Shown piece after piece: positions 482 to 20,324 of a stretch of 20,324 nucleotides of DNA. The translations under genes and the position numbers were made by a program. Under the pieces are notes generated by a model. It was not told the origin of the DNA. It made no database searches and saw only the letters and a list, made by a program, of their open reading frames with translations. The stretch is taken from the IMG/VR virus record IMGVR_UViG_3300021957_000411, positions 1-20,324 of that record, one strand, 5' to 3'. Origin of the DNA: a virus. Position 1 is the first letter of the stretch, and each line of letters begins with the position of its first letter.

Positions 482-519
482 ACCCTTTCTCTCTAAATAT
501 CTCAGCCGCTAAGGATATG

Positions 520-1077
520 TTATTTTTTCGGCAAGTCCCAAGTGTGAGGGTTGGTTAGCTCAAATCCCAACCCTTCAAAGTGCTGCTTAACCTCGTCTAA
601 GAATGCGCCATGTTGCGCGATGTTCATTGCGGAGGTTACAGGGAAATCGAACGGCTCTACCATCAATTCTAGCTTTTGCTCGTAAGGCATTGGCCTGATT
701 ATTCTGTCGTACTTTGCTCGATACTCTGGGCTGTCGCGTCTTAGAATCGGAACGCCAAAGTGCAACTTGCAATAGGCCCGATACTCCCACGCCTTCTGAT
801 CGCCCTGCGACTCTGCATCCCTAAACCATTGCCATTGAGTCCTGTTTTGAGACAACGACCTTGATCTCGACGCCTTCTTGATAACTACGTCTATGGGATA
901 CTGTAGCTCGATTTGCTGAAGCGTTGTCAACAAGCTGTTCTTGTCTCCCTCGTCATGCAGGACCATGTGTATCTCAGACGCTGACAGAAGACCCCCACTG
1001 TTACCATTACCTAGTGTTTTAATTTCTGCGAGACGTTGTTTTTGGCGGTCTACCGCCTTTTGCGAGGCCTTTCTCAT
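520..1077 (-). CDS. NinB-like recombination mediator protein
   Basis: The 185-residue product has a core that resembles lambda NinB (Orf), a recombination mediator that binds ssDNA and SSB. The matching features are a strand ending in VVIKKASRSRSLSQNR (about residues 64-79, compare the RSLDQNRKLW motif of NinB), a tryptophan-rich helix after it, and a C-terminal helical segment (about 146-175). About 50 extra residues precede the core. The start codon overlaps the upstream stop as ATGA (1074-1077) and has no clear Shine-Dalgarno, which suggests translational coupling. A later in-frame ATG at 966 would remove most of the extension and cannot be excluded. NinG lies directly downstream, which supports the assignment. 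Similarity is judged by eye, so an unrelated phage family with the same layout remains possible. Confidence 0.65.
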   Translation of the reverse strand: MRKASQKAVDRQKQRLAEIKTLGNGNSGGLLSASEIHMVLHDEGDKNSLLTTLQQIELQYPIDVVIKKASRSRSLSQNRTQWQWFRDAESQGDQKAWEYRAYCKLHFGVPILRRDSPEYRAKYDRIIRPMPYEQKLELMVEPFDFPVTSAMNIAQHGAFLDEVKQHFEGLGFELTNPHTWDLPKK

Positions 1078-1547
1078 CGTAGTTGTGCAAACATTGCTTT
1101 AGTTTCCTCTATCTGCTCGTCGGTCACTTCGTATAGTGACTTTTCCCCGGTGACACAAACTTCATGGTGATGACGAGTGAATGCGTATGATCTACACACG
1201 TCACACATCCTAGTATCCTTTGTTGGTCTATGGGCTGGCTCTAGCTTTATCTCGTCGAGCAACTCCTTGAACTCGCCCAAGGTAGGCGCAAACTTCTTAA
1301 ACTTGTGAACGACCTCCAAGGTTGCTTTGTTCATCAACGCCTGATCGTAGTCCTTGAGGTATGACCACCACATCTTTTTAGTAGATGCGATGTCCTCATT
1401 GGAGGTGTCATTCAGGAACGACGGATAGTTCAATCTCATCACGCCAAACAACTGATTTATGTGCGACTTATCTAGCTCCTCACCAGTCCGTACTTGTGGC
1501 GATCTTCGTTGCGCTGTGACGGCGTTGCTGACGATTCTTGTGCTCAT
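1074..1547 (-). CDS. Probable replicative helicase loader (G39P / lambda-P type)
   Basis: The preferred ATG at 1547 has GGAAG seven bases upstream and gives 157 residues. In-frame ATGs at 1565 and 1583 lie deeper inside the upstream gene. The central part (about residues 25-95) is helical, with the pattern LNYPSF, then WWSYLKDYD, then FAPTLGEFKELL. This resembles the short helix bundles of phage helicase loaders such as G39P, where a phrase like 'FPPTPGEI' ends the bundle. The C-terminal part has C-x2-C and a histidine-rich HHHEVC stretch, so a small zinc site is possible. The gene overlaps the end of the initiator gene by 68 bases and ends in an ATGA overlap with the NinB-like gene. Its position directly after the initiator matches the O-then-P arrangement of lambda-like phages. 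Function is inferred from position and shape. Confidence 0.5.
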   Translation of the reverse strand: MSTRIVSNAVTAQRRSPQVRTGEELDKSHINQLFGVMRLNYPSFLNDTSNEDIASTKKMWWSYLKDYDQALMNKATLEVVHKFKKFAPTLGEFKELLDEIKLEPAHRPTKDTRMCDVCRSYAFTRHHHEVCVTGEKSLYEVTDEQIEETKAMFAQLR

Positions 1548-2190
1548 ATATTGTCTTCCATCCATTGCTATTTGCCTCCTCAAATAATGTTTTTATGTCT
1601 TCTCCGTTCTGAGAAAATTCCTCTGCCCTGCTCGCCAAAGTCGCCAATGCCCTTGCGGTATTGTTGGCCTTTAACTTTACCCTAGTCTTTAAGAATTCAT
1701 TCCATAACTGCCTATCAACCCCCAGTGCGGTAACGCGCTGGAAGATAGCTTTTATCTTTCTCTTTTCTGTATCTGCTTCTGTATCTGTATCTGTATCTGT
1801 ATCTTGGGTCGTCACCTTAGCGTTTTGGTGACGTTTTGGTTCCGTCACGCTTTTGCTAACCTTTTGTTTTTCCCGGTATTTTCTCTGACGTTCTTTGCTG
1901 GAATCCGACTTGTATTGTCGTTCTTCCCACTTGATGACATCCCAATTCTTATCAACCAAATTAACGTCTTTAAGACGCTTCTTTAGCTCATCAAGGGCGG
2001 GTAGTTGTAAGCCTAATTTGACTGCCAACGATCTGTTGACAAACTCTGCATCTGCGTTCTCAAAGATGCCTGATTGCTTGCACGCCATAATTGCTATGAA
2101 ATGCCATCGATCCTCGAATGCAAGTAGCCGCATCTTGTGGTTATCGACAATATTCGTGTATACTCTGAACCAAGGTAAACCATCTGACAT
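1480..2190 (-). CDS. Phage replication initiator / replisome organiser (O-like)
   Basis: The ATG at 2190 is chosen because GGAG sits five bases upstream. The longer frame to 2283 would read through a hairpin. The product has 236 residues in three parts. Residues 1-85 form a winged-helix-like domain of the type that starts many phage replication proteins, with WFRVYTNIVDNHKM near the front. This is followed by the common linker phrase WEERQYKSDSSKERQRKYREKQK (from about residue 86). Residues 110-145 are a low-complexity linker with DTDTDTDT. Residues 145-236 are a second helical domain with LWNEFLKTRVKLK and NGWKTIYEHK, a pattern frequent at the C-terminus of phage initiators. It likely binds the origin and recruits the helicase through the loader encoded next. 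The linker-coding DNA carries repeats that may be the origin itself. Confidence 0.7.
   Translation of the reverse strand: MSDGLPWFRVYTNIVDNHKMRLLAFEDRWHFIAIMACKQSGIFENADAEFVNRSLAVKLGLQLPALDELKKRLKDVNLVDKNWDVIKWEERQYKSDSSKERQRKYREKQKVSKSVTEPKRHQNAKVTTQDTDTDTDTEADTEKRKIKAIFQRVTALGVDRQLWNEFLKTRVKLKANNTARALATLASRAEEFSQNGEDIKTLFEEANSNGWKTIYEHKNRQQRRHSATKIATSTDW
1767..1848. repeat. Hexamer and 11-bp-spaced repeats, candidate replication origin
   Basis: On the + strand, six hexamers run from 1767 to 1802: five are CTGTAT, one is CTGCTT, and the last four are contiguous. Beside them, CGTTTTGGT occurs twice (1821-1829 and 1832-1840), spaced exactly 11 bases apart, about one helical turn. GTCACC at 1811 pairs with GGTGAC at 1827-1832, and another GTCAC is at 1844. 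The flanking DNA is rich in pyrimidine and T. All of it lies in the linker-coding part of the initiator gene, where lambda carries its iterons in gene O. The hexamers alone could simply reflect the Asp-Thr linker; the CGTTTTGGT pair is harder to explain that way. An origin role is inferred. Confidence 0.4.
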
Positions 2191-2245
2191 AACTGCTCCG
2201 TTTTGTTCCTTCGTTGCCTTTGCTTCCTGTTCCGAAGAAGCTATT

Positions 2246-2271
2246 AGCCCCCTTAATTGGGGGCTTTTTTT
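2246..2271 (+). terminator. Intrinsic terminator acting on rightward RNA
   Basis: AGCCCCC (2246-2252) and GGGGGCT (2259-2265) form a perfect seven-pair stem around TTAATT. Seven T residues (2265-2271) follow on the + strand. On the - strand the hairpin is followed by AATAGC, so it lacks a U-tract there. It lies between the stop of the repressor gene and the ribosome site of the replication initiator, both leftward genes. It therefore terminates antisense RNA rather than the local mRNA, although in the leftward mRNA the hairpin could still shape translation or decay. Confidence 0.75.
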
Positions 2272-2465
2272 CACCGCTCCCAAATGGTCTTGGTATTGAC
2301 CGACTCGATACGATCAATCTCAAAATCATCGGAACAATGTACCCAAGTCTCTCGACAGTTAGCCCAGTACCAGACCTTTTGCCTGGAGCAGCCCATCAGC
2401 CTAGCGACATCGCTAAACGACTTGCCTGATTCTTCGCAAAAGAATGTCAATTGCATCTTATTCAT
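2271..2465 (-). CDS. Small Cro-like HTH repressor
   Basis: The ATG at 2465 is preceded by GGAGGGACTT, a strong Shine-Dalgarno at five bases, and gives 64 residues. The open frame reaches further up (to 2567) but would cross both promoters. Residues 16-35 read as a helix-turn-helix: SFSDVARLMG, then CSRQKVWYWA. The style is that of Cro and YdaS-type phage repressors, which are about 60-75 residues. A C-terminal acidic and hydrophobic tail follows and could support dimers. The gene is the first of the leftward replication operon and sits opposite the rightward recombination operon, the classical position for a regulator of the divergent promoters. No larger CI-type repressor is in the window. 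Confidence 0.7.
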   Translation of the reverse strand: MNKMQLTFFCEESGKSFSDVARLMGCSRQKVWYWANCRETWVHCSDDFEIDRIESVNTKTIWER

Positions 2466-2489
2466 AAGTCCCTCCATTTGTTCCTGCGA

Positions 2490-2518
2490 ATTATAAGCAC
2501 AAAAAACTTGTCTCGTAA
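2490..2518 (-). promoter_or_regulatory. Leftward promoter for the repressor-replication operon
   Basis: The - strand has TATAAT (2495-2490), a perfect -10 box. A weak -35 box, TTACGA (2518-2513), lies 17 bases upstream. The expected start is near 2483, leaving a leader of about 18 bases that holds the GGAGG ribosome site at 2475-2471. The -35 region lies inside the candidate operator. Confidence 0.6.
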
Positions 2519-2529
2519 AGTCTTGACAA
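2508..2529. promoter_or_regulatory. Candidate operator, TTGTC-N12-GACAA
   Basis: TTGTC at 2508-2512 and GACAA at 2525-2529 form an inverted repeat with a 12-base, non-symmetric centre. The right half overlaps the -35 box of the rightward promoter, and the left half overlaps the -35 region of the leftward one. Bound protein could affect both promoters. The adjacent 64-residue HTH protein is the obvious candidate ligand. Only one such site is seen, and five-base half sites can occur by chance. Confidence 0.4.
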
Positions 2530-2551
2530 TGCTTTTTGTAAAATATATATT
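2523..2551 (+). promoter_or_regulatory. Strong sigma70-type rightward promoter
   Basis: A consensus -35 box TTGACA (2523-2528) is followed after 17 bases by TATATT (2546-2551), in an A/T-rich stretch. Transcription should start near 2558 and run into the gene at 2581, whose GGAG ribosome site is at 2571-2574. It would drive the annealing protein, SSB-like and zinc-ribbon genes as one operon. Confidence 0.8.
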
Positions 2552-2580
2552 TAACGGGCATTAACAAAACGGAGAAAACA

Positions 2581-2796
2581 ATGCGTATAGAAAAAGGTGT
2601 TCCATACCCGAAGCCAGTACCGACAAGTAGGATTGACTATTCAGTTCTTGATGACATGGAGGTCAATGATTCTGTGTACTGCGAAAGTCAAAACGTAGAA
2701 ATTTGGCGGTACATGAAGAACAAAGGTTGGACTGTTGCCTCGAAGTATTATCAAGTGGAAGGAAAGCGCCACATGCGAACTTGGAGGATGTCATGA
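2581..2796 (+). CDS. Small uncharacterised early phage protein
   Basis: The 71-residue product starts MRIEKGVPYPKP and later has the phrase DDMEVNDSVY. It ends in a basic segment with W-rich spacing (WRYMKNKGWTVASKYY and RTWRMS). This pattern is common among small early phage proteins that lie near recombination and regulatory genes, but no function is known to me. The ribosome site GGAG lies six bases before the ATG. It is the first gene of the rightward operon and overlaps the next gene by the ATGA motif at 2793-2796. It is soluble by composition, with no membrane segment. Confidence 0.75.
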   Translation: MRIEKGVPYPKPVPTSRIDYSVLDDMEVNDSVYCESQNVEIWRYMKNKGWTVASKYYQVEGKRHMRTWRMS

Positions 2797-3566
2797 GCGA
2801 CAGCAAAGCGCATAACGTGTTTAGAAACCTTGCCTCAATTGATGTCAACAAGCACACATCCAAGAAGGGTAAATTTACATACCTAAGTTGGACATGGGCA
2901 TGGGCGACCTTGATGGAGGAATACCCAGAATCAACCTATGAATTCCTGCCGAACGAGATCCATAACGACGAGTCAGTAACTGTACACTGTACTGTGACGG
3001 TTGAAGGCATCAGCAGAACGATGTGGCTTGCTGTAATGGATAACAACAACCGCGCCATCAAGAACCCGTCATCTACCGACATTGCGAACAACAAGATGCG
3101 TTGTTTAGTCAAAGCGTTGGCGATGTTTGGTCTAGGGCATTATATCTATGCAGGGGAATCAATGCCTGAAGTTGACTTGTACTCAGAGCTTCATCTTGTC
3201 CTTAAAAGCGGCAGTTCTTTAGATCTTCTTGATCATTTGGACCGGCTGTCTGATACAGAGCAAGCAGAGGCCTTTAACGGCGCTCCTAAAGGCCAGAAGC
3301 AAGCGTTTAAAGACCAAGTAAGGGTTGCTACCAAGGCTGCTCACGATGCCTTAGACGGCATTACAGCAGACCTAAGGGAGCTGATGAAAGATGATGATAA
3401 ATCGGGTCTTGACGAGGTGTGGGATGACACCACACCGTTACAGAAAAAACTTATTGGTGCTCGGTTTACGGCGGCAGAAAAACATGCCTTCAAAGCTATT
3501 AGAGCTGCTGGAGATGTTGAGGCCCCAGAAGGCGTTATCCATTATTTAGAAAAGAAAGGAGAGTAA
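2793..3566 (+). CDS. Single-strand annealing protein, Sak3 / DUF1071 type
   Basis: The ATG at 2793 is chosen because GGAGG is five bases upstream and the start overlaps the previous stop as ATGA. An earlier in-frame ATG at 2703 lies within the previous gene. The product has 257 residues. The N-terminal domain (about 1-130) carries the hallmarks of the Sak3/DUF1071 recombinase family: FRNLASIDVNKHT, then a YLSWTWAWATL segment, the IKNPSSTDIANNKMRCLVKA stretch, and AMFGLGHYIYAGE. Members anneal complementary ssDNA during phage recombination and replication. The rest (130-257) is charged and helical and is likely a partner-binding tail. The SSB-like gene follows two bases later, the usual pairing of an annealing protein and its SSB. 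Confidence 0.85.
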   Translation: MSDSKAHNVFRNLASIDVNKHTSKKGKFTYLSWTWAWATLMEEYPESTYEFLPNEIHNDESVTVHCTVTVEGISRTMWLAVMDNNNRAIKNPSSTDIANNKMRCLVKALAMFGLGHYIYAGESMPEVDLYSELHLVLKSGSSLDLLDHLDRLSDTEQAEAFNGAPKGQKQAFKDQVRVATKAAHDALDGITADLRELMKDDDKSGLDEVWDDTTPLQKKLIGARFTAAEKHAFKAIRAAGDVEAPEGVIHYLEKKGE

Positions 3567-3567
3567 A

Positions 3568-3885
3568 ATGAGTACAGTGGGAATTAATTTGTCAATCGAC
3601 GTTACAAAGCTCAGAAAAGAGCGGCTTTATAAGGGGAAGAAAGGCACTTATGCCGATCTAACTGTCTTCGTCAATAGCGATAAAGATGATTACGGCAAGA
3701 ACGGCAGCATCATGGAGTCGCTGTCTCAAGAAGAAAGGGATTCTGGGGCTGACAAGAACTGGCTAGGGGATGCCAAGGTCTTCTGGAGCGACTCAGGCGA
3801 GTTTAAGCAAGCTCCGAAGCAGGATGCGGCACCAGCTCATCATAAGCCAGCTACAGATGAGTTTGACGATGACATTCCTTTTTAA
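3568..3885 (+). CDS. Phage SSB-like ssDNA-binding protein with DDDIPF tip
   Basis: The 105-residue product has a short N-terminal beta-rich region (about 1-75, with LSIDVTKLRKERLYKGKKG and YADLTVFVN) that fits a reduced OB-fold-like ssDNA-binding domain. A Pro/Ala/His linker (80-95) follows, and the protein ends in FDDDIPF. The acidic, proline-phenylalanine tip is the docking tail by which SSB proteins recruit recombination and replication enzymes. AAGGAG precedes the ATG. It is shorter than bacterial SSB (about 170 residues), which is normal for phage versions. The last 17 bases also encode the start of the next gene, so the acidic tip and the neighbour's N-terminus share DNA. Confidence 0.75.
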   Translation: MSTVGINLSIDVTKLRKERLYKGKKGTYADLTVFVNSDKDDYGKNGSIMESLSQEERDSGADKNWLGDAKVFWSDSGEFKQAPKQDAAPAHHKPATDEFDDDIPF

Positions 3886-4027
3886 GCCGTCTTGCGGTTA
3901 TTGCGGAAAGCCTGTTAGGAGAGATTTTAAGATCTGCTCCAGATGCAGGGAAAAGAAACGAAGAAGCCCAGCAGACCTGTCAATGTCCGCTAACGCTAAT
4001 AAATGGCTCCAAAGGAGTTGGGGGTGA
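3869..4027 (+). CDS. Small zinc-ribbon protein overlapping the SSB-like gene
   Basis: An ATG at 3869 gives a 52-residue protein in the -2/+1 frame relative to the SSB-like gene, overlapping its last 17 bases. It has two CxxC knuckles, C9-x2-C12 and C23-x2-C26, spaced as in a zinc ribbon. A very basic stretch (REKKRR) comes next and a tryptophan-containing tail ends the protein. It could bind nucleic acid or another early protein. The ribosome site is weak, so expression probably depends on coupling to the SSB-like gene. A longer frame from 3770 exists but would lie almost wholly inside the SSB-like gene. The ordered cysteines make a chance frame unlikely, but function is unknown. Confidence 0.55.
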   Translation: MTFLFKPSCGYCGKPVRRDFKICSRCREKKRRSPADLSMSANANKWLQRSWG

Positions 4028-4095
4028 TTATTCAAGGAATCGAACCTTGATACGACCGTGAGGGAAGGAGGGGAATCGTAGGCCCAGCCATAATC
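4025..4095 (-). ncRNA. tRNA-like structured element (T-arm plus acceptor-like stem)
   Basis: Read on the - strand from 4095, the 71-base element starts GATTATG and ends AATAATCA. Six of seven acceptor-like pairs form. A perfect T-arm follows the canon: stem CAAGG/CCTTG (4049-4033) around the loop TTCGATT, with TTCGA as in real tRNAs. A third stem, TACGA/TCGTA (4080-4076 with 4055-4051), encloses a 20-base pyrimidine-rich loop. No acceptable D-arm or seven-base anticodon loop can be drawn, so it is not a standard tRNA. It lies between convergent gene blocks, just after the tail/lysis genes on the - strand, and overlaps the stop codon of the zinc-ribbon gene on the + strand. It could be a processing signal, a tRNA relic or the core of an attachment site. 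Confidence 0.5.
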
Positions 4096-4122
4096 AATTT
4101 GGTAGGGCTTGCGAAACCCGTT

Positions 4123-4521
4123 TTAACTGTCTCTATGCACCGCGTTTTTTTTCTCGTATGACCTCATTGCTCCTAATCCTAGCATACCCATCAGCACAGG
4201 CATCATGGTTTCTAGGGGGACTAAAGGTATAACTATGTCTATACCTAACAAGGCCAAGACAAAGTTGCTAAATGGGATAGTAATAAAGTTCCCAAACATT
4301 CCTAAAACGCAAACCCAACCCACTGCGGGTCGCCATCCGGACACAAACAGCGACTTGTGGGCTGCTTCAACCTGATTGATAGCCATCTGCCCTTTAGCAA
4401 GCTCTTGAGCGTGTTGATCGGCCATTGTGGCGAGATCATGCGCCAGCCTAGCCTTCTGGTCTTTGTCCTCAATAAACTTGTCCAGCAATCCTGTAACTGG
4501 GCCTATAAGAGCCTGTATCAC
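4123..4521 (-). CDS. Holin, 3-TM superfamily (GTA-holin-like)
   Basis: The start is GTG at 4521, overlapping the upstream stop (GTGA). The 132-residue product has an amphipathic N-terminal half (1-58) and then the phrase SGWRPAVGWVCVLGM, the mark of the 3TM holin family found in gene transfer agents and marine phages. Hydrophobic segments lie at about 61-82, 84-103 and 105-118, followed by a basic end (RSYEKKN). Holins form the membrane lesion that times lysis. It is the last leftward gene of the right arm, next to the convergent recombination operon. The family call is firm. Confidence 0.85.
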   Translation of the reverse strand: MIQALIGPVTGLLDKFIEDKDQKARLAHDLATMADQHAQELAKGQMAINQVEAAHKSLFVSGWRPAVGWVCVLGMFGNFITIPFSNFVLALLGIDIVIPLVPLETMMPVLMGMLGLGAMRSYEKKNAVHRDS

Positions 4522-4670
4522 TGCTTGGCCTTGCCGACATTAAGTGCGAACATTTCCAGCACCTTGTAAATCTTGCCTATGACGGCATCGTCTTTAGGTG
4601 TAGGGGTTACTGCACAAATTGCGCTAGCGAGGGCCACCAACATTGTCGCTATCTCTAAGTATTCCAGCAT
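4518..4670 (-). CDS. 50-residue membrane-associated protein in lysis cassette
   Basis: The ATG at 4670 has GGAG six bases upstream and gives 50 residues. The N-terminal half (MLEYLEIATMLVALASAICAV) is one hydrophobic helix. The rest, with PTPKDDAVIGKIYKVLEMFALN and a basic tail, is a short amphipathic helix. It overlaps the previous gene by 47 bases in a different frame and runs into the GTG start of the holin (overlap GTGA). The strong ribosome site and the double coupling argue that it is real despite its size. It may be a holin partner or antiholin; no family is certain. Confidence 0.7.
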   Translation of the reverse strand: MLEYLEIATMLVALASAICAVTPTPKDDAVIGKIYKVLEMFALNVGKAKQ

Positions 4671-4812
4671 ATTGTTCTCCAATTTCGCAAGCCGTTACTA
4701 TCTTGCCGTAGTTTAGTTTTTCCGCCGCCACTTCACACTGTTCTAGGGTGTCAAACTCTATCCGATCAGGAGACACCCAGCTCCCGATCATGATGATTAA
4801 AATAACCTTCAT
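4624..4812 (-). CDS. 62-residue small exported or membrane-anchored protein
   Basis: The product opens with MKVILIIMIGSWVSP, a short hydrophobic leader that could be a signal peptide or an anchor. The soluble remainder has two cysteines (C26 and C42), which could form a disulfide in the periplasm, and the phrase FDTLEQCEVAAEKL. The layout recalls small DUF1482-like phage proteins. Its ATG overlaps the upstream stop (ATGA at 4809-4812). It sits in the lysis cassette, so an accessory lysis or exclusion role is possible but unproven. Confidence 0.65.
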   Translation of the reverse strand: MKVILIIMIGSWVSPDRIEFDTLEQCEVAAEKLNYGKIVTACEIGEQYAGILRDSDNVGGPR

Positions 4813-5204
4813 TTGTTTGTTTTTAGTTCCTCTACTTCGTTCTCTAGGTATTCCAGCCTAATTTCTTGTGCGTAGTTGGTTCTTATTGACTCTTGAACTT
4901 CCGCAGGAGGTGCCCAGTTGTTCCTGAAATCGGTATTGAGGCCAACAACCTTTTCCAGCGCAGAAATCTGGCTGTTCTGCAATAGATCATCAGGTAACGC
5001 GCCTAACTCACCTCTAGGCCACTTAACACGAAACTCTGAGTTCATCTTCAGATCTACTTCTAGAATCGTCATCTGACGTTCTAGGACGCTGATACGGTTA
5101 GTCACTTCGGTATAAGCAAAAACGGCAACTACTACGCCAGCAATAATGGCCACTAGGTTCCGAATCGGAATCTCTATGGTCGTGTTGTCGTTGATTTCAG
5201 GCAT
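4809..5204 (-). CDS. Membrane-anchored coiled-coil protein with 35-residue repeat
   Basis: The ATG at 5204 overlaps the upstream stop (TAATG), so it is preferred to an earlier start at 5237 inside the neighbouring gene. The 131-residue protein has a short polar N-terminus, one membrane helix (about 14-31), a coiled coil (33-53), and then two tandem repeats with a 35-residue period. N55, F58-R59 and W62 recur as N90, F93-R94 and W97, and I80 recurs as I115. The end (115-131) is again coiled coil. The topology, a single N-terminal anchor plus a long periplasmic coil, is like an inner-membrane spanin, but the repeats are not typical of spanins. Function is uncertain. Confidence 0.7.
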   Translation of the reverse strand: MPEINDNTTIEIPIRNLVAIIAGVVVAVFAYTEVTNRISVLERQMTILEVDLKMNSEFRVKWPRGELGALPDDLLQNSQISALEKVVGLNTDFRNNWAPPAEVQESIRTNYAQEIRLEYLENEVEELKTNK

Positions 5205-5359
5205 TACTTGCGAATCAGCTCGTTGATCGCCTTCCAAGCCTCTACCATTTTAGATTCCAGCACTTCCAGCCGGTTCAGAATCTTGCCTATTGTCAGCACT
5301 AAGATAAATATTCCCGCAGCTATGGGCCAGCCTGACACAACCAAATTCCATGCTTCCAT
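5204..5359 (-). CDS. 51-residue single-TM protein
   Basis: An ATG at 5359 gives 51 residues with AAAGGA upstream. The N-terminal segment (about 4-24, NLVVSGWPIAAGIFILVLTIG) is one membrane helix. The C-terminal 26 residues (KILNRLEVLESKMVEAWKAI onward) are a coiled coil with heptad leucines. Start and end overlap the neighbours by one base each (TAATG), so three genes in a row are translationally linked. The size and topology fit a small holin-like or pinholin-like protein or a membrane partner of the 131-residue gene. It is too short for many gene finders. Confidence 0.7.
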   Translation of the reverse strand: MEAWNLVVSGWPIAAGIFILVLTIGKILNRLEVLESKMVEAWKAINELIRK

Positions 5360-5529
5360 TACTCGTCCTTTCTGCCGAAAATACCTTTTACGGTATCAGA
5401 CTCCCAGATCCGAATGGACAGCCATATTATCGTGACTCCAGCCGCTGCTTCAGGAAGCCAGCCAGCTAAACTGGCAACGCCGCCGCTAACGGCGACTGCA
5501 TCTACTATTGATTTGACTTCCTGTTGCAT
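5359..5529 (-). CDS. 56-residue small holin-like membrane protein
   Basis: An ATG at 5529 with AGGTG five bases upstream gives 56 residues. The sequence has an N-terminal amphipathic helix (QQEVKSIVDAVAVSGGV), a LAGWLPEAAAG turn, and a membrane helix (about 29-41, TIIWLSIRIWES) ending in DTVKGIFGRK. This pattern is familiar from small phage proteins annotated as holins. It may work with, or in place of, the 3-TM holin. It overlaps the following gene by the TAATG motif. Confidence 0.75.
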   Translation of the reverse strand: MQQEVKSIVDAVAVSGGVASLAGWLPEAAAGVTIIWLSIRIWESDTVKGIFGRKDE

Positions 5530-5536
5530 ATATCAC

Positions 5537-5755
5537 CTAGTGCGCTTCGTCAACTTCTTCAAAGACAGGTGCTTCGCCAGGAATCGGCGCTTCTTCTGTC
5601 TGCTGTTGCTGCTGCTGTTGTGCTTGAATCAAGCTAAGTTGTGCCTCTAAATCGGCAATTCTGAGAGCCTGACCAGCGTTTTGTTTAGCTAATGAATCAA
5701 TCTTAGCCATTGTTACATACTCGTCAGCACTCATCTCTCGCTTCTGTTCGCTCAT
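5537..5755 (-). CDS. 72-residue coiled-coil protein with glutamine tract
   Basis: AGGAGGGGACT right before the ATG is a very strong ribosome site. The 72-residue protein is hydrophilic. Residues 9-50 are a predicted coiled coil (heptads through IDSLAKQNAGQALRIADLEAQL), followed by seven glutamines (about 47-53) encoded by mixed CAG/CAA codons. The tail is acidic and proline-containing (EEAPIPGEAPVFEEVDE). There is no membrane segment. It may be a scaffold or adaptor. It begins the lysis/membrane cassette after a 76-base gap from the virion gene; no clear promoter or terminator is seen in that gap (5756-5831). Confidence 0.7.
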   Translation of the reverse strand: MSEQKREMSADEYVTMAKIDSLAKQNAGQALRIADLEAQLSLIQAQQQQQQQTEEAPIPGEAPVFEEVDEAH

Positions 5756-5831
5756 AGTCCCCTCCTAGTTTTTGGTTTTACGATTTTATCCCGTTCTTAG
5801 CACATCTTCCACTTGTTTAACAGATCAGCAT

Positions 5832-7157
5832 TTAGTTGAATTTATCTGTCCTAGCTCTCAGGCTGATCATAAAGTTTAGAGTTGTATCTTTCTCAATGAA
5901 GGTCCGATCTGCTGGGTTGTATCCAAGGAGCCTTAAAGCCCACCTGAACCTAATATCAACTGTTGAAACCTTGTCGCCATAAGTGAATCTAGGCATTGTG
6001 GTAGAGACTTGGAAACTTCTGCCGTAAGCGGTGTTTGCTGCCGTTGTTACAAATGACGTAATACTGTTGGTTGACATCAATGTCTCGCCAAATCCAGATA
6101 CGTTGTAAGAAGATTGGCCAATTTGACCGCCGCCGGGATTCTGCGTTCCGGTCGCTAGTGACTGATTGTGCTGAGACGTTAAAAGAGCTGCTTGTATAAC
6201 TTGGACGCCTTCAAATGTAATGGCGTCATTTGTGACTGCGCTGTAAGTTTGAGGACTGCCGGTTCCTGACGCTTCTGCGTTCCAATACTGATTAGTAAGA
6301 GTGATTGTAGCGCCGCTTCCGGTAAAGTTTCCGGTAGATAAAAGGTGATACCTTAGTCTTGTGTTAGTTCCGTCAAACTCTACAGTCATTCCGCATTTGG
6401 CAAGGCTTACCGCTGCATTAATGCTTGCGTTATCTATATCTGCATTTGCACTTGCTAACTTATAATTAAGGTCATTGCTGGTTGTGCTAAACAAACGCCT
6501 TCGCGTATAGCCTTGGTTCTCGCCAACGTTGCAAGGGTAATAATATTCTTTGATTGCATTCTTGCCGCCGCTTGCGATAGGGCTTCCCGCCACAGTGTTG
6601 TACCAATTCAAGGCACGAACGTCTGAGTCGTTTAAACCCACGGAAGTCCCAGAACTGCCCCCTGCGACCGTGTGTATTGTGTTCAAACTTAACGCCCCTG
6701 ACGCGGGCATAGATCCGCTATGCTTTACATACATGGCTTGAGTTGCACCAGAGGAAGACGATGCGAAAGGGAAGGATGACGCAGCCCAAGACCATCTAGT
6801 ATATGGACCGCCTTCCTCGCCTCCCGTTGGCGGCGGGCTTGGGTAATTAGCACTAGAATTGTCAGCGACTATAGCCCCGCCATAAGTAGCGGAAGATCTA
6901 TTGTAATTAACGCCGTTGATCGTTATGTAGTCCCAGCCAGAATTTTCGTGAATGCCGTACACTTCAAAGTTTATTTTGCTGGTTGAATTCTGCCAATACA
7001 AACCTCGCACACCATTACCGCCAAACGCAACGAGGTATTTCTCGCTTTGGTTAATAGTCGCAGAGCCGATAACGTCAGAAAATCCCGCAAAAACTGGTGG
7101 GCTGAATCCAAAAATATCAGTAGTTGATATTGTAAATTGGCTTATTGTGACTGCCAT
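5832..7157 (-). CDS. Probable virion/tail-associated protein, 441 residues
   Basis: The product is rich in Ser, Thr, Gly, Asn and aromatic residues and is beta-rich by appearance, typical of phage fibre or spike proteins. There is no signal peptide. A glycine/proline hinge (YPSPPPTGGEEGGPY, about 105-119) splits an N-terminal domain from a larger C-terminal part. The C-terminal end has RFRWALRLLGYNPADRTFIEKDT. I recognise no catalytic motif or named family. It follows the giant tail protein and two small genes in one leftward block, so it is likely a structural or receptor-associated protein. It starts inside the previous gene, with a 16-base overlap. Confidence 0.7.
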   Translation of the reverse strand: MAVTISQFTISTTDIFGFSPPVFAGFSDVIGSATINQSEKYLVAFGGNGVRGLYWQNSTSKINFEVYGIHENSGWDYITINGVNYNRSSATYGGAIVADNSSANYPSPPPTGGEEGGPYTRWSWAASSFPFASSSSGATQAMYVKHSGSMPASGALSLNTIHTVAGGSSGTSVGLNDSDVRALNWYNTVAGSPIASGGKNAIKEYYYPCNVGENQGYTRRRLFSTTSNDLNYKLASANADIDNASINAAVSLAKCGMTVEFDGTNTRLRYHLLSTGNFTGSGATITLTNQYWNAEASGTGSPQTYSAVTNDAITFEGVQVIQAALLTSQHNQSLATGTQNPGGGQIGQSSYNVSGFGETLMSTNSITSFVTTAANTAYGRSFQVSTTMPRFTYGDKVSTVDIRFRWALRLLGYNPADRTFIEKDTTLNFMISLRARTDKFN

Positions 7158-7321
7158 TCTTCCACCTGAGCTATGAACGCTTGCTCTTGAGCAACGAAAG
7201 ATTCTATCTGCTGCTCAGGAGTTAGATTAGGGTCAACAGCTAGGTGAAAAAACCCAGTCTCTCCATTGCTAAACTCATGGGAAAACTTCAGCAGTCCATC
7301 TTTAACCGTGTGCTCAGGCAT
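7142..7321 (-). CDS. 59-residue small tail-region protein, unknown
   Basis: An ATG at 7321 gives 59 residues. The protein is acidic with two parts: a front half with GLLKFSHEFSNGETGFFHLAV, and a helical end with TPEQQIESFVAQEQAFIAQVEEW. It overlaps its upstream neighbour by 8 bases and its downstream neighbour by 16 bases. The ordered overlaps and codon use suggest a real gene. It may assist tail-fibre assembly, as short helical proteins next to fibre genes often do, but no family is recognised. Confidence 0.65.
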   Translation of the reverse strand: MPEHTVKDGLLKFSHEFSNGETGFFHLAVDPNLTPEQQIESFVAQEQAFIAQVEEWQSQ

Positions 7322-7562
7322 CAGTCCAGACCGCCGCGCAGATGTCTTGGACTATCTGAGGTTGACCAGACACATCATCTCCAGGTTTAAAGTTAAACGA
7401 CCTGTTCTGCGTGATCGGCAGAGTGTCATCATCTGGGTCGTCAACCGTCACTCGGTCATTAACTGTCACTAATGTAACCATAGTGGAAGGGTCAGCGGGA
7501 CTCATGCTCATGTTAGGTCTAACCATGATATCCACGAGTTCAACAGTTTTTGTCATTGCCAT
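7314..7562 (-). CDS. 82-residue protein after the tail-fibre gene, unknown
   Basis: AAGGAG lies eight bases before the ATG at 7562; an ATG two codons later is also possible. The 82-residue product has beta-strand character with an acidic DDPDDDTLP loop and the phrase QNRSFNFKPGDDVSGQPQ. It carries no membrane segment. The gene starts one base after the stop of the giant tail-tip gene. Such small beta proteins directly after a J-like gene may be fibre accessories. Function unknown. Confidence 0.65.
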   Translation of the reverse strand: MAMTKTVELVDIMVRPNMSMSPADPSTMVTLVTVNDRVTVDDPDDDTLPITQNRSFNFKPGDDVSGQPQIVQDICAAVWTDA

Positions 7563-7563
7563 T

Positions 7564-10500
7564 TTACTTCTCCTTGAGTTTGGTTTTAAGGGTTTCTACT
7601 TCTTGCGTTAATTCCTTTATGGCCTCAACTAACAGCGGGACTAATTTTGAATAATCAACCGTCAGATAATTTTCACCAGATTTGGACGTGATCTCACCAG
7701 TATTCTCGTCGGTATCCATGTCAATTGGAGCCAACGACACGGCCTCGGGCAAGACGGCTTGAATTTGTTGCGCCGACAATCCCACTTGCTGCTTGTCGTT
7801 GCTGTAACCCAATTCTTTGGCAAGATCGTTTTCAACGTACTTGAAGCCTGAGAGGGAGTTAACTTTCTCTAAAGCGTTATCAATATCCGCTGTCTTAGTC
7901 TTTAGACGCATATCTGAATAATATGCAGTCACGTTCCCAGTGGTTGCTATCTCCGCAGAACCGCCGCCAACATATAGTCTTTTGTTGTTGTACGTTCTGA
8001 CCCAAGTGCTGTCCTCCATGTGGACGCCGCCAGTGTAGGCAGAGAAATATATCCCGTCATTGTTGTTGGTCCGATACCAAGTGTCAGTTCCGTTTATTAG
8101 TGTGTGACCGTCTTGGCTTAATCCGCCGTTTGCGTGAAGTCTTCCGGTAATCCTGACTCCACTATCCAAATTGCCGATAGACATTAATTCGGTGGACATC
8201 GCTGCGTCAGAAAAGAAACGCACGCCACCGTAATTAGGCAGAACGAAGAACCTGATGCCTGTATGCCATTTGATATTTAGCTTGGTGTAATTTCCGCCAA
8301 CGTTTTCCATTGAGGTGCCAATGGAGTAATTGTTTAGGTCATTGCCGCCGCCAAAAGCCAGTGAGGTAGAAGATACCGCGTTATAGGAGTTGTTTGTCCA
8401 CTCACCGCCAATGAGCATTGCATGCTGCCAAGTAAATCTTTTGGAAGTGTCTATGTATCCAGCAGACGCAGCGTTGATTATAAACGTGACGTTATTATTA
8501 GTGTATGTACCCAAATAACCGCCGCCACTGTTTAGCCAAGTATCGTGAGCGTACATGCCCATCTGTATACCGGCAGTAGTCTTGACGTGCATCCTAGCGT
8601 GGCCAGTGCCGTTTAAAGTTAGCTGCCTATCCCAACTTGCGTAGTTAACCGGCGCTTCTCCAATGGACAACCCGCCATAAGTAGCACCTGCGAAAGCTGA
8701 GTTGCCGGTTGTATTGAGATACCAAGTGCTGCTGTTATTAAGGTATAAATTACCTGTACGCGTTTTCCTTAGATCCCAAGAGCCCCAAGCACTTTCAAGG
8801 AATCCAAAGTCTGAGCCGTTGGCACCGTAAAGTTGCATTAAATGTGTATCATTTGCGGATCTTAAAACTAACCCGCCAGCGGTATTGCTCCCTGAGTTCT
8901 TTATAACTAAAGAATGAGTTCCTGTGTTTATCGTTTGAGGGCTAACCGCTCCATTAATAACAAAGGTTTTATTTGCTGCCGTATCAATCCCTTCAGGTAG
9001 AACGCGGAACACGCTGCTATTCCCAGAAGGATGAAAGGCAATAAGCCCGCTTGAGGTATATAAATTTAGTGAGTTTGCTCCACCCCAGTTTGTATATGTG
9101 GAGCTACCTTTAAATATCTCTGTGTTGCCGCCTTCGGCTGTCAAAATCAAAGAAGAATAAGACGTTTGCGTTGCATTCCCGATCTTGATACCGGCAAGGA
9201 TGGCGCTACTTGACAGCACTTCAAAAGGACTGCCAGAAGTTGCGCTAATTTTTAACGCTGGATATTCGTATCTTGCAGTGAACGGCTCAAAGATAGCGTA
9301 GTAATTGTATTGAGCGACATTTATGATAAGTAATGCCGTATCAAAATGAAAAGTTACGTTCGCACCTACCGCTACAGTTCGCTTAAGGACGTTGTTGTGA
9401 TAGTAGTAAGCGTTTGTGTTGTCATAAATAATTGACAGCTTATCGCCAATAGCAACAGTTCCAAAAGCCCCTCGGCTTGTACCGCTTTCGTATATATATA
9501 AAGTACTACCGGCTACATACCAAGCATAATTTATATTGGTGTAGCTCGCGCTGGCACTAGGATTTGTACTGATTCCCGCCATGTGTTCTAGCAGCGTAGC
9601 AGGAGAGTATTCCATCTTTACGCCAGACTTATAGCCTGTTGTGCTATAAACGTGCGTGTCCCATTGACTTGATCCGGCAGCCGCACCTTTACCGAATTGG
9701 CTTTTTGCGCCATTGAGGGTTGCGTATGCACTGCCGACTAATTGCAGAGACGGTTGATCTAAGTTTGTGCCGTTAATTGTCCCGATGTTGGAAAGGTTAC
9801 GGCTGGAGTCTATTACTGTGGTGCCGCCAACTTGAAAAGCGCCTGCGGAAGTAAAGCCAAACGTATCTGAGCCAGCGCCATTAGTCCTAACATAAACGCC
9901 TCTACCTGTTGCAGAGGCAAGAAATAATCCGTCACCGTTGTCATCTCTGCCAAACACTCGGTTGTAACCATTGGTTATGCCGCCAAAGCCAATAACCCCG
10001 TATCCGCCATACGTCCCATCTTCTCCAACTTGAGTACCTGTCTTTGCGTATATTTGGCGAGCAGGGGATATTACTGCTTGGCCACCCATCGCCAAGTTGC
10101 CGCTAACGATATTAATTAATCCGTTTCCATTAATCGTAAAGCGTTCGTTATTTGTCGCCTTGTCAGTTCCTGTTGCAGTGTGGAAACGAATAGCCGCTGC
10201 ATCGTTGGGATAAGTGGTATGCAAATGGACATCGCCCACATTATTGTCATACCAAATTTGAAATCCTTCAGTCGTAATTGCGCCTTGATCAGATCTTAGG
10301 TTGAGAACCGAATCAAAATTGCCATTCCCCCTGATGTCTATAATTGAATCAGCTGAGGCTTTGTTTACATCTAATTTATCAGTCAGGTTGGTCTGGCCAG
10401 ACACGTTAAGGCCGTAATAAACCCTTACGTTGTTATCAAGTTCGCCTACCGAAAATATTTTAACACCCGGCGTATTATCAGCCATTGCGTCATTGTAGAA

Positions 10501-13500
10501 GCGAGTTCCGCCGTAAGTTTCATTTGCACCTATCCTAATTCCGGTGTGCCACTGAATATCTAGCTTCGTGTAATCCCCGCCAACATCCTCTTTTACTCCT
10601 ACCCCGATTGAGTACGCGTCAGGGTAAGAGGTGTTTAATCCACCGAAATAAATCCTACCCGTTGCCACAGTGGCATAAGAGTTGGTCGTTCCATTATTAC
10701 CGACTAACAGATAAGCGTTCTTCGTATAAACTCGGCCAGATTCTACGACAAACCTATCTTGTTGACCTGCTGGGTGAAAGTTTATAGTTCCTTTTGAATT
10801 ATAGATGTTGAGAGAATCAGCGCCGCCCCAGTTTGTGTAGGTGTCAGATGCTTTGAACATTTGACCATTCTGAGTTCCAGTACCATCCGCCGCATGTAGG
10901 AGTAAATTTGTATAATCGGTTTGAGAGCTATCTCCAACATTTATCTGGGCAACAGTACTACTAGGGTTTACTGCTAAGTTGCCTGTGAGCGTTCCGCCCG
11001 TTAAAGGTAAGTGGCCTACTTGGGAGTAGCTGTAAGCTGTATCCCATTGAGTAATTTGCGTACTGCTAAAATCTGAGCTAGCCCATAGACCGTTGCCGTT
11101 GTATGTTGGTCTGCCTCGCGGGAAATTAACCACGCCTGCATTTGTTATGTTAATGGCTATCTGAGGCCCAGCGGCATAGCTGTTGGTAGTTGCGAGCGCC
11201 ATGTGCGTCCCAGTAGAATTGTCATTTACAACATAAATCCCTGCTTGCGCTTCATTAGCACTACCTCCTTGAAAGGTAATAGCGGCTTCTTTTGGAGACC
11301 CAGAAGCGCCAGCGCCATTTGTTATGTGAATGTTGCCAAGCAAAGATTTGCTAACATCAAAAGCCCCATTAGCCGATGTTGTGGTTACGTTCTTATTAAT
11401 GTCCAAGTTAGTAGCAGTTATAGCGCCTGAAAAAGTGCCTGTTGTTCCTGATAAGCCGCCTGTAAGCGTTCCGCCAGCCAGAGGCAGATGGCCTACTTGA
11501 GAGTAGGTATAAGCAGCGTCCCAGTTTGTATTTGTTACATTGGACAGCACACCAGAATGAAGGGTTTCAGCCGCGATCATCCCTGAATCAAAGTTGTCTA
11601 ATTCCTGTGTAGAGAATGCCAATCCTGTAAAGTAAAATGAGCCACGTTTATTTGTAATTCTTATGGAACTAAAGCTACTTAACCCAGTTCCTATTTTAAC
11701 AATCGCCTGCCCATCGTGTTCAGCGGGATCTCCCTCATTGCTAGTTTCTACTGACTGCCCTGTGCTTATCCTGCCGAGAAATACTAAATCGCCGTCAGCT
11801 TGTATCGCATGAACATCAACGTAACCCCCATCAGACCATTTTAGGAGTGACATATAACAAGTGTCAGCTCCAGCAGGGATGTTGTACTGCTTGTATGCCC
11901 CAGCGTTATAGGTATAAGAATATCCTGCGGCAAGTTTTATGGTCCCCCACGACGCTCCTGTAGTGCTTGAAGTCCAAGTCCCAGATTCAGCATCTTGGTC
12001 TGTTGCCTTCAAGTAAGTCTTTGGGATATTAGCGTTGTGGCTAAACTCAAAAGAATCGCTCGCAGTCTTCCATAAAATAGAGGCATCAGCCGTAGCAGAA
12101 ACCGCGTCTTGGATAGTGATACCCGCATCGTTAGCGGTGCTGGATGAATCACCCGTGGAATAGTTCAGGGTTATGTTGTTGTCTTTTACCGTTAGGTTGT
12201 CAGTATTGACCGTGGTAGTAGTGCCGTTTACCGTTAGGTCGCCGGTGATAGTTAAGTTTTGACTGATAGTCCCGCCAGTCAAAGGCAAGTGACCTATCTG
12301 CGAATAGTCATATCCGGTTTTCCACTGCGTAGAATTTGACGCTGCGCCGTCAGCATATATAGATCCAGAGGCGAGAAAATTGCCGTTGTCTCCAACAAAC
12401 GCGAAGGGTTGTGAGGTGCCATTATTGTACTTTATATTTAGTGTATTAGAGCCGCTTTCATTAATATCGGGCTTGGCTTCAATTGTAAATGTTTCGTCTT
12501 GAGTGTCTGAATCTCTCCAGCTAATAGATCTGCTTCCGCTTGATGCGGTCAGGATAACATCACCAGTAAGCAAACTTCCTGCCGCCTGATCCCTTATAAC
12601 GTTACTGCTATCAATTGTGAAGTATTGGCTGCTGCTATTGAAATAAAGTGTGCGGCTTGATGACGAACTAGGATTTGCTGTGCTGGAACCAGATCCTGCA
12701 ACGTAACTAACTTGCACGCGATAAGCTCTATCGCCCGGAGTACTGACAAAAGTTTTGCTCATTACAAGATTAAATTGGCTATCTATTGCATCTTTATCGC
12801 CTGCATACCAGCCAGTCCCAGATGCGTAAACAGAATAATAATTATCGTCTGATGCAGCCCCAGATAAGGTTCTGCGTGTAAATGTTTTGCTACCTAAAGA
12901 AACATTAGCAAAAGTTCCAACGACCCCACCATTAATATTGGCGACTTGTAAAGTCAGCGTTATGCTGTCGGGGAAATCTTCCGCGCTGTTGATGGCAAAA
13001 GGTAAATACCCCAACGGAAACAAAGTTTTAATAGTTAGACTTTGCGTTGCAGATAAAATCGTTCTGGCGTAATCAGTGTTACTGGTCAGCTCGTCTGCTA
13101 CTTGTGCCACCGCTGTGTCCGATCCTGACGCTAGACTAGCTAATCCTACCCCGACCAAGCCATCTTGCGCTGAATCAAAGATAACCGCGCTCGGATCATT
13201 TGGCCGAGTTATTACTATTCGGTCAGCGGTAACAGTCCCGCTGGCATCAACCTTGAAAGGAGACGCCCCAGCAGTAGCAGCGCCAGCGTAAAATTTATAA
13301 TTCTGATCGCCACCATCCATCGTTGCAGATGTCGCGCCAGATCCAGCAATAAACTTGGAATCAGTGCTAACGTCACCCGTAAATGCTCCAGCGGATGCGT
13401 TTACAGTTCCGGTAAATGTTCCTGATGTTGCTGTGATTGCGCCGGTTATCGTTGCACCTGTTGCGGTTAATGCGCCAGCTCTTGTTACCCTAAAAGGCGC

Positions 13501-15762: not shown

Positions 15763-16142
15763 ATCGCCCACTCCGCTATTACATATTTATATTCAACAGC
15801 CTTTAAGCCTTTCTCGGTTATGCAAACCACATTGCCGTTGTACCGAACGCCTAACAGCTCGCCAATAGACGGGATAAATAAAACGCAAACATCCCCATCT
15901 TTCTCCGCCTTTTTAGGCTCTCCAAGTAGACTTGATATCAAGCCCACTAACCCGTTGTGTTCTTCTATAATTCTTTGAGCTTCTGCTTCTGATCCATACT
16001 CAAACTTAGATGCGTGATCTTCGCCGGTTATCTCTTTGACAACATGGGAAGCAAATTGGCAGCAATCGGTTGTGCCGTATTCAAAATCGCCTTTCTCCCA
16101 AGAGTTTAGGGAAGATAAAAGTTTGTTGGCAACAATATTCAT
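15750..16142 (-). CDS. NlpC/P60-like tail protein (lambda K position, DUF6950 type)
   Basis: The 130-residue product begins with a helix and then the phrase FEYGTTDCCQFASHVV (about 20-35). A cysteine following Asp at the start of a helix is the hallmark of NlpC/P60-like domains, and the small phage version resembles DUF6950. A GDVCVLF strand and a GVRYNGNVVCITEKGL strand follow, and the sequence ends EWAICHQ. A clear catalytic histidine is not evident, so activity is uncertain. Position between the L-like and J-like genes equals lambda K, whose NlpC domain is thought to aid tail-tip assembly or wall passage. The start overlaps the previous stop (TAATG), and the gene overlaps the J-like start. 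Confidence 0.75.
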   Translation of the reverse strand: MNIVANKLLSSLNSWEKGDFEYGTTDCCQFASHVVKEITGEDHASKFEYGSEAEAQRIIEEHNGLVGLISSLLGEPKKAEKDGDVCVLFIPSIGELLGVRYNGNVVCITEKGLKAVEYKYVIAEWAICHQ

Positions 16143-19649: not shown

Positions 19650-19986
19650 TCTTATTTGCCTCTACCCTTTGGGCTTGGTCTAATTCGACGATTGTTTCTA
19701 TCTCAAAAAGCGTTAGCTCCCCAAATATGGACATATAATCTTTTATATGAGTGTAGCTTATTGCCTCTCCAGACGCGTTCTTCAACCGAACAAACATCAA
19801 CCAAAGGTAAGCAAGCTCGTCCCGTAAAACAGGCGCGGCTTGCAATTCTTTAGGCTTGCGTCCCAGTGTCTTCTCGACTTGCCTCAAGTTTTCAATACGG
19901 CTAACGTTGGAGTCTTTATCGTAACCAGAGGCCCAAAACTGCCACTGTGCATACGTAAAGATTTCGTCAGTTAGCCCTTGGTAAAA
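19642..19986 (-). CDS. Tail assembly chaperone GT, C-terminal (T) part, made by -1 frameshift
   Basis: This frame has no ATG in its upstream part, but it is open from 19986 down to the stop at 19642, overlapping the end of the G-like gene. A -1 slip at the heptamer at 19989-19983 joins the two. The fused tail reads NFYQGLTDEIFTYAQW, then WASGYDKD and later LAYLWLMFVRLKNASGE. This is the arrangement of lambda G and GT. The T part (about 113 residues) has a helical composition and lies just before the tape measure, which GT proteins bind during tail assembly. A stand-alone start at TTG 19887 would leave an unexplained 83-base open gap, so the fusion is preferred. Confidence 0.8.
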   Translation of the reverse strand, partial: FYQGLTDEIFTYAQWQFWASGYDKDSNVSRIENLRQVEKTLGRKPKELQAAPVLRDELAYLWLMFVRLKNASGEAISYTHIKDYMSIFGELTLFEIETIVELDQAQRVEANKNG

Positions 19987-20324
19987 TTTTGGCGCTGGCT
20001 AACAAAAGTCATAACCTGAGTTGCTACATCAGGCGATTGATCGTAAATCTTTCTAGCTGCTTCAGGAGAGAAAGGAACGTCTTTCGCGTCCTTACCACTT
20101 CCTTGCTTCAAGCCCTTCCAACCTATCGTCACTGCGACCAACAGGTTCGTCATGCTATCTGCATCGTCAACCTCAAGATTTGCTCGATTAGACTTTAGTA
20201 TCGCTTTCCTAAAAGTCTTTGAGTCTGGCCCCCTAACTATAAACACCACATCTGACGGCTCGCCAGTGCTGGGGTTATTTATAGCTACCTCTCGGCCTTT
20301 CTCATGCTCATCCGCTGTATAAAA
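19971..20324 (-). CDS. Tail assembly chaperone (lambda G position), partial at right edge
   Basis: The frame is open from 20324 to the stop at 19971 with no ATG in the window, so the gene starts outside it; a GTG at 20249 is only an internal codon. The visible 117 residues include EHEKGREVAINNPSTGEPSD and the FIVRGPDSKTFRKAILKS block, then a helical part ending QRQNFTKG. This resembles tail assembly chaperones of siphophages that act with the tape measure. Its position just before the T frame and the tape measure, and the frameshift site at its end, make the role almost certain. Confidence 0.8.
   Translation of the reverse strand, partial: FYTADEHEKGREVAINNPSTGEPSDVVFIVRGPDSKTFRKAILKSNRANLEVDDADSMTNLLVAVTIGWKGLKQGSGKDAKDVPFSPEAARKIYDQSPDVATQVMTFVSQRQNFTKG
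19983..19989 (-). promoter_or_regulatory. -1 ribosomal frameshift site, A_AAU_UUU
   Basis: On the - strand, the G-frame codons AAT TTT are preceded by A, giving the X_XXY_YYZ heptamer A AAT TTT. After a -1 slip the reading continues into the T frame. The G-frame stop TAA lies ten bases downstream (19973-19971). No strong stem is seen just after the site, as is also the case at lambda G/T. Confidence 0.8.

Follow-up and report, generated by a model that had tools for sequence, protein, structure and literature searches.

A 71-nt element on the minus strand of the analysed window (the whole 20,324-nt stretch of the IMG/VR virus record IMGVR_UViG_3300021957_000411) has a four-way, tRNA-like fold, lies behind the last gene of the late/lysis operon, has been kept by compensatory evolution in a small group of related, uncultured phages, and carries a constant C/U-rich loop as well as ACC after its acceptor stem (Table 1). 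The preservation of the folding by matching mutations makes it very probable, as judged from sequence comparison, that the element does a job, the most likely one being the trimming of the late message together with the release of a small RNA. We give an even chance to the explanation that this conserved tRNA-like structure (TLS) is the 3' end of the late/lysis transcript and is probably processed by tRNA enzymes.

Fold of the element

Minimum-free-energy folding of the minus-strand stretch from 4095 to 4025 gives a four-way junction, at the coordinates and on the strand that had been proposed in an earlier inspection of the letters (hereafter, the sequence-only reading). That reading had drawn an acceptor stem with six of seven pairs and a T stem of five; both helices stand, but are better drawn with 6 bp each. 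Its third stem, of five pairs with a 20-base loop, also stands and occupies the anticodon position, where a closing U-G pair extends it to 6 bp and leaves a loop of 18 nt. The assertion that no anticodon arm can be drawn thus holds for the 7-nt loop of a canonical tRNA only, which is replaced by a loop of 18-22 nt in all ten distinct variants of the element, because an arm with a C/U-rich loop does exist. The D arm, which had been considered missing, is present in the minimum-free-energy fold as a miniature hairpin.

Table 1 Features of the tRNA-like structure and of its surroundings in the window
Feature	Positions	Strand	Basis and remarks
tRNA-like structure, G1 to discriminator-like A	4025-4095	-	Fold, covariance model, covariation; from 4095 to 4025: GATTAT-GGC-TGG-GCC-TACGAT-(18-nt loop)-GTCGTA-TCAAGG-TTCGATT-CCTTGA-ATAATC-A, then CC
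Acceptor-like stem, 5' strand GATTAT, 6 bp	4090-4095	-	Pairs with 4026-4031; fold, 10 variants
Miniature D hairpin GGC-TGG-GCC (GGC-UGG-GCC in RNA), 3 bp	4081-4089	-	Fold
Anticodon-position arm, stem TACGAT/GTCGTA, 6 bp with the closing U-G pair included	4051-4080	-	Fold
C/U-rich loop of the anticodon-position arm, 18 nt, 89 % pyrimidine	4057-4074	-	Window copy
T arm, stem TCAAGG/CCTTGA, loop TTCGATT	4032-4050	-	Fold, 10 variants
Acceptor-like stem, 3' strand ATAATC	4026-4031	-	Fold and hand alignment
A-C-C 3' of the acceptor stem, R73-C-C-like	4023-4025	-	ACC kept in relatives
Small hairpin GGGTTTCGCAAGCCC between the holin stop and the element	4105-4119	-	Read from the sequence, no statistics
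Holin gene, upstream neighbour of the element and final gene in the late/lysis operon	4123-4521	-	Pfam PF11351, 2.6e-20; phrog_3427
Convergent genes downstream	3568-4027	+	Putative SSB gene 3568-3885; small CxxC...CxxC frame with its stop at 4025-4027
Probable tail-assembly gene, start beyond the window	19971-20324	-	Function assigned only from its place before the tape measure

By energy the window copy is ordinary (z -0.83, with 43 of 200 shuffles equally stable), and the question of a chance fold is decided by the compensatory changes in relatives described below. As for the shape, a closed cloverleaf was obtained for 42 of the 10,128 overlapping 71-nt stretches of the window (both strands), among which the strict tRNA-like form was listed for the 4025-4095 element alone, and 3,000 dinucleotide shuffles yielded nine cloverleaves and none of the strict form. 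We rejected a chance fold on this rarity of the cloverleaf shape relative to shuffles together with the compensatory changes, the energy z-score alone being non-discriminating. ARAGORN called no tRNA in the window or in 15 contigs with the element, some of which are fragments (G007 was read to base 20,000 of 20,312). No Rfam family matched the window at the gathering threshold, nor any of seven further contig pieces at the gathering score.

The discriminator-like A followed by CC, pointed out in the sequence-only reading, proved to be a general feature: ACC sits at, or at most 1 nt from, the place after the acceptor in all 15 loci listed, and a U directly precedes the acceptor on the 5' side in all 15. 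A complete CCA is not constant in the DNA (ACC is followed by A, C or T, and L005, L090 and L210 have AACC), which counts against processing by tRNA enzymes.

Relatives and covariation

The element is present in 20 contigs, the window included, with 10 distinct cores. An identical copy occupies the corresponding position in L002, altered versions lie at the same junction in relatives of the neighbouring gene 3568-3885, and further copies came from a pattern scan of IMG/VR. The cores form two groups, group 1 consisting of the window, L086, L092 and L005 and group 2 of L087, L090, L176, L188, L210 and L219. Identical cores were counted once (in group 1, L002 with the window, and L095 and L228 with L092; in group 2, L185 and L220 with L176, L088, L091, L093 and L094 with L087, and L089 with L090), and two stretches from other phages, L206 and L296, were excluded from all counts. 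The covariance model R1, built on seven group 2 sequences, matches positions 4022-4095 of the window with 37.1 bits (E 4e-8). A genome search with this model picked up 15 of 17 records; the two left undetected, G010 and G016, do contain the element.

In the model-fitted alignment (20 rows, 13 of them distinct), 99.6 % of the stem cells form standard pairs, and slid stem partners pair in only 31-54 %. Both-sided changes affect 10 of the 20 pairs, a count as high as which was seen in 2 of 500 shuffles, and the covariation score was reached by none of 500; further pair types are no more numerous than in shuffles (245 of 500 as high). Because such an alignment is biased toward the structure, the 10 cores were also aligned by hand. 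Here, 199 of 200 stem cells pair, the sole unpaired one being an A-C in the acceptor of L005. Compensatory change in related phages, by which the sequence-only reading had proposed to judge the fold, is evident at 12 of the 20 pairs, that is, in four of the six acceptor pairs, five of the six in the anticodon-position stem and three of the five inner pairs of the T stem, with none in the D hairpin, the variants being related, so that independent double changes are fewer than the cell counts. Some stem pairs show three or four pair types. The stem of the D hairpin is invariant in all ten variants, and its loop reads TGG or TAG(T). Among the wobble and mismatch cases one favours each strand, which makes them uninformative on strand. 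Folded singly, all seven sequences (the window and six relatives) gave the four-way shape, L005 with a shortened acceptor; the energy z-scores of the six relatives run from -0.17 (L005) to -3.72 (L219), with the window and L005 not below shuffles.

The D and T loops change jointly: UGG goes with UUCRAUU (TTCGATT or TTCAATT in the DNA) in the four group 1 variants, and UAG(U) goes with UGCRAUU, which departs from the TTCRANT pattern at the second base, in the six variants of group 2. This joint switch is a single change, as would be expected if both loops touch.

Searches beyond the family returned little. In 81 other loci (L003, L004 and 79 holin loci among the matches listed), model R2 gave no convincing match, the best one having 17.5 bits (E 0.095), and in 62 further loci its best matches were L206 and mostly sites of ordinary phage tRNAs called by ARAGORN. 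These R2 searches did not extend to L141-L164 or to the greater part of L231-L440, of which the loci collected by then were covered with a descriptor. The descriptor, run on 342 sequences (2.78 Mb, overlaps included), many of which had been selected with related patterns and are not a random background, returned only the element family, L206 and L296. The whole-element pattern has no match in GTDB genomes, and a literature search over titles and the starts of abstracts found no such phage element described.

Place in the genome

In all 14 loci inspected, the element lies 3' of the last gene on the late strand, which is the holin gene in 13 and another small gene in L176. The seven holins aligned from beside the element are 72-84 % identical to that of L210. 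In group 1, 26-27 nt separate the holin stop from the element (27 nt in the window) and include a small hairpin, the place of which is taken by a different hairpin in L005; in the eight inspected group 2 loci with a holin the gap is -2, the UGA stop overlapping the first acceptor bases. The downstream neighbour is mostly the gene corresponding to 3568-3885 with its CxxC frame. This gene has no Pfam match and belongs to phrog_24909, of unknown function; its product is a putative SSB, given its acidic DDDIPF tail and its place beside a Sak-like gene. Another gene of the DDDIPF type is found there in L185 and L220, and a different gene in L219. The place of the element is thus kept while the downstream gene (L219, L185, L220) or the upstream gene (L176) differs, which ties the element to the late-operon end.

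The element occurs in seven of the 40 loci that contain a relative of gene 4809-5237, which lies upstream, the ends having been inspected in 15 of the 40 and several loci stopping too soon for its presence to be judged. In the near relatives L443, L444, L450 and L451, the holin gene is directly followed by another gene, presumably endolysin-like by its first residues, and the inspected loci with the element are without that gene there. Together, these two observations indicate that the element is dispensable to the wider group.

A pattern scan of positions 3600-4700 found five terminator-like sites in all, with 1.4 expected, and listed no promoter, with 1.0 expected. On the strand of the element, terminator-like sites lie downstream at 3993-3968 and 3776-3759, both within the convergent genes. 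In L185:3019-3092 and L220:6329-6402, a T run follows right after ACC, and a terminator-like end is possible in both copies.

How the element may act

The actual 3' end of the late RNA is placed here by gene order. Late transcription passing the holin gene would produce an RNA that adopts the elbow and acceptor shape of a tRNA; RNase P of the host would then cut on the 5' side of the element, and the 3' side would be handled by the tRNA 3' trimming and CCA-adding enzymes. In this way the end of the late mRNA would be fixed with no need for an intrinsic terminator, and what is left over would be a stable RNA, about 70 nt long, on which the loop is exposed. In group 2, where the holin UGA overlaps the acceptor, cutting would compete with translation of the last codons. 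The loop would probably bind purine-rich RNA, such as ribosome-binding sites, or else a C/U-binding protein.

RNase P reads the stack of the acceptor and T stems. In the element, this stack comprises 6+6 bp in the window and 6+5 bp in group 2, to be compared with a substrate criterion of about 12 bp and a 3' RCC. From this recognition, and from reports on viral and phage RNAs, we infer that the late RNA may be cut at the element and leave a small RNA behind. RNase P RNA is reported to pair with a 3' RCCA (PMC11143913), and according to the same source the enzyme cuts the tRNA-like ends of plant viruses as well as two phage noncoding RNAs listed among its substrates, M3 RNA and the C4 antisense RNA of P1/P7, to which we liken the element by description and not by sequence. 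Thus, of the proposal in the sequence-only reading that a tRNA mimic ends the leftward mRNA, the conserved and covarying structure at that place has been borne out, and recruitment of RNase P or RNase Z is its putative part.

Comparison with known systems

The only relaxed Rfam match of the window is mascRNA-menRNA (RF01684), the tRNA-like end released from the MALAT1 and MEN beta RNAs. It covers all 56 model positions with 19.9 bits (E 0.13; 15.6 bits for L005) and falls far below the cut-off of 42.5. The two elements share a short D hairpin, an arm in the anticodon position and a T arm, set side by side, whereas the phage acceptor has 6 rather than 7 bp, the phage loop spans 18-22 nt, and a phage mRNA stands in place of a metazoan noncoding RNA. 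For the group 2 copy L188, the only relaxed match is the tRNA-like 3' UTR element of Tymovirus/Pomovirus/Furovirus (RF00233; 19.9 bits, cut-off 40, E 0.043), with which it has in common the letters AGUGC and GGGGUGCAA and the ACCA end; furthermore, the combination of D and T loops in group 2 resembles the loops of the tymovirus element. In tymoviruses the acceptor is a pseudoknot, whereas the phage element has an ordinary acceptor stem and belongs to a DNA phage. Bacterial small RNAs of the staphylococcal type bind Shine-Dalgarno sequences through C-rich loops. The element likewise displays a C/U-rich hairpin loop complementary to AGGAG, but does so on a tRNA-like scaffold and with a regulatory role that is putative here.

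Structures of this kind at 3' ends are classic in plant RNA viruses and are known from a few metazoan noncoding RNAs. A covarying TLS at the end of the late message in a tailed DNA phage, with one loop version resembling mascRNA and the other the tymovirus element, would suggest that bacteria are a further setting in which this solution evolved. The element offers a simple test of whether tRNA-processing enzymes are used instead of terminators in phages, and a C/U-rich loop presented on a tRNA scaffold would add a new design to the small RNAs of phages.

The C/U-rich loop and alternative explanations

In all ten variants the loop in the anticodon position is 18-22 nt long, 89-100 % pyrimidine and nearly free of G, and contains CUCCU. 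Among the C/G-rich runs of at least 12 pyrimidines or purines, none is longer than the loop in 14 of 15 contigs, whereas G010 has one longer run. Such a loop on a tRNA-like scaffold might pair with ribosome-binding sites and make the element a regulatory small RNA, whose main target in the lineage of the window would be the tail-assembly gene of the same operon; we regard this as rather unlikely. A perfect 12-nt complement of the loop lies at the ribosome-binding site of this gene in G001 and G010, and in each of them none of 300 permuted loops reached it, but G001, a close relative of the window, and G010 are themselves related, with tail genes 96 % identical, so the match amounts to about one observation. 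The site is the best off-site pairing in these two contigs and the second best in G002. In the other 12 contigs tested, 10-111 of 300 permuted loops had a perfect complement as long. Mean pairing of the loop with start regions leans the right way in seven of nine group 2 contigs (the seven, of which four share one loop, are equalled by 1-10 of 40 permuted loops, and the remaining two by 19 and 30), yet all six group 1 sequences, the window included, show no preference (26-39 of 40 as good), and the group 2 sequence examined, which consists partly of fragments, yielded no relative of the tail gene. We rejected both a general anti-Shine-Dalgarno pairing of the loop, with no preference in group 1 and a weak one in seven of nine group 2 contigs, and a single target across all lineages, which was not found, the tail-gene match being confined to group 1. 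The tail-gene site is a candidate target and as such a lead only. Distinctly unlikely, in our estimate, is the full scheme in which the processed 3' end of the late mRNA would be a tRNA-mimic small RNA, its anti-Shine-Dalgarno loop would silence the tail-assembly gene late in infection and, by composition, other purine-rich ribosome-binding sites as well, and timing would depend on holin translation versus cutting by tRNA enzymes. Independently of what the loop does, a long run of purines surrounds the ribosome-binding site of the probable tail-assembly gene (L345 near 6284; L342 near 8900), the run being 18 nt in G002.

The fold might instead act mainly as a barrier against 3' exonucleases, shielding a late mRNA that Rho or another mechanism ends and that RNase P leaves uncut, with the C-rich loop as a site for Rho or a pyrimidine-binding protein. 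We regard this, too, as rather unlikely: the composition of the loop and the two downstream terminator-like sites on the same strand speak for it, but a barrier needs neither D-loop/T-loop pairing nor an ACC end, both of which are conserved, and 18-22 nt is short for a Rho site. The element also fills the gap between the convergent genes, and most of its stems could form in the plus strand as well, as would suit a function in that strand or in the DNA, at the junction of the two operons. Yet the T loop, the D loop, ACC and the preceding U are sensible only on the minus strand, the strand of the late genes, on which all 20 covariance-model matches of the family and the seven from the upstream-gene loci lie, making such a function very unlikely. 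The two further readings advanced from the letters of the window did not survive the comparison. Decay of a phage tRNA would explain the tRNA-like T arm, and a similar GGCTGGGCC stretch does occur in tRNA genes of other phages, for example in the tRNA-Met gene of L165, but the stems are kept by compensation, all ten variants retain the large loop and the 15 contigs, some of them fragments, are negative by ARAGORN, which renders decay extremely improbable. The 3' part of a host tRNA retained as an attachment core, such as the T arm and the acceptor 3' strand resemble, has a negligible probability, given that none of 17 records has an integrase above the cut-off (one sub-threshold match of 12.3 bits in G008), that GTDB genomes contain no exact copy of the 21-nt 3' part, and that covariation extends to the 5' half.

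Other tRNA-like stretches and the remainder of the window

Two stretches in other phages recall the element. L206:2398-2468, at the edge of the stretch examined, has a tRNA-like fold with the same GGCTGGGCC D hairpin and a T arm; its stem in the anticodon position is long, the loop closed by it measures about 15 nt and lacks the C/U richness, ARAGORN is negative, and R2 gives 33.2 bits. In L296, which was selected by a CTCCT pattern and thus contains that motif by construction, the minus strand at about 2736-2806 holds a tRNA-like stretch whose anticodon-position loop is pyrimidine-rich and 15-17 nt long; the stretch is preceded by a hairpin resembling an Arg-CCT anticodon arm, and ARAGORN is negative there as well.

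The window has no near match in the phage collection, and a distant search with its positions 500-8000 gave short pieces in eight records only. Its regions 1-2567 and 7564-15771 hold NinG-like and replication-initiator-like genes and a tail protein of 2,735 aa.
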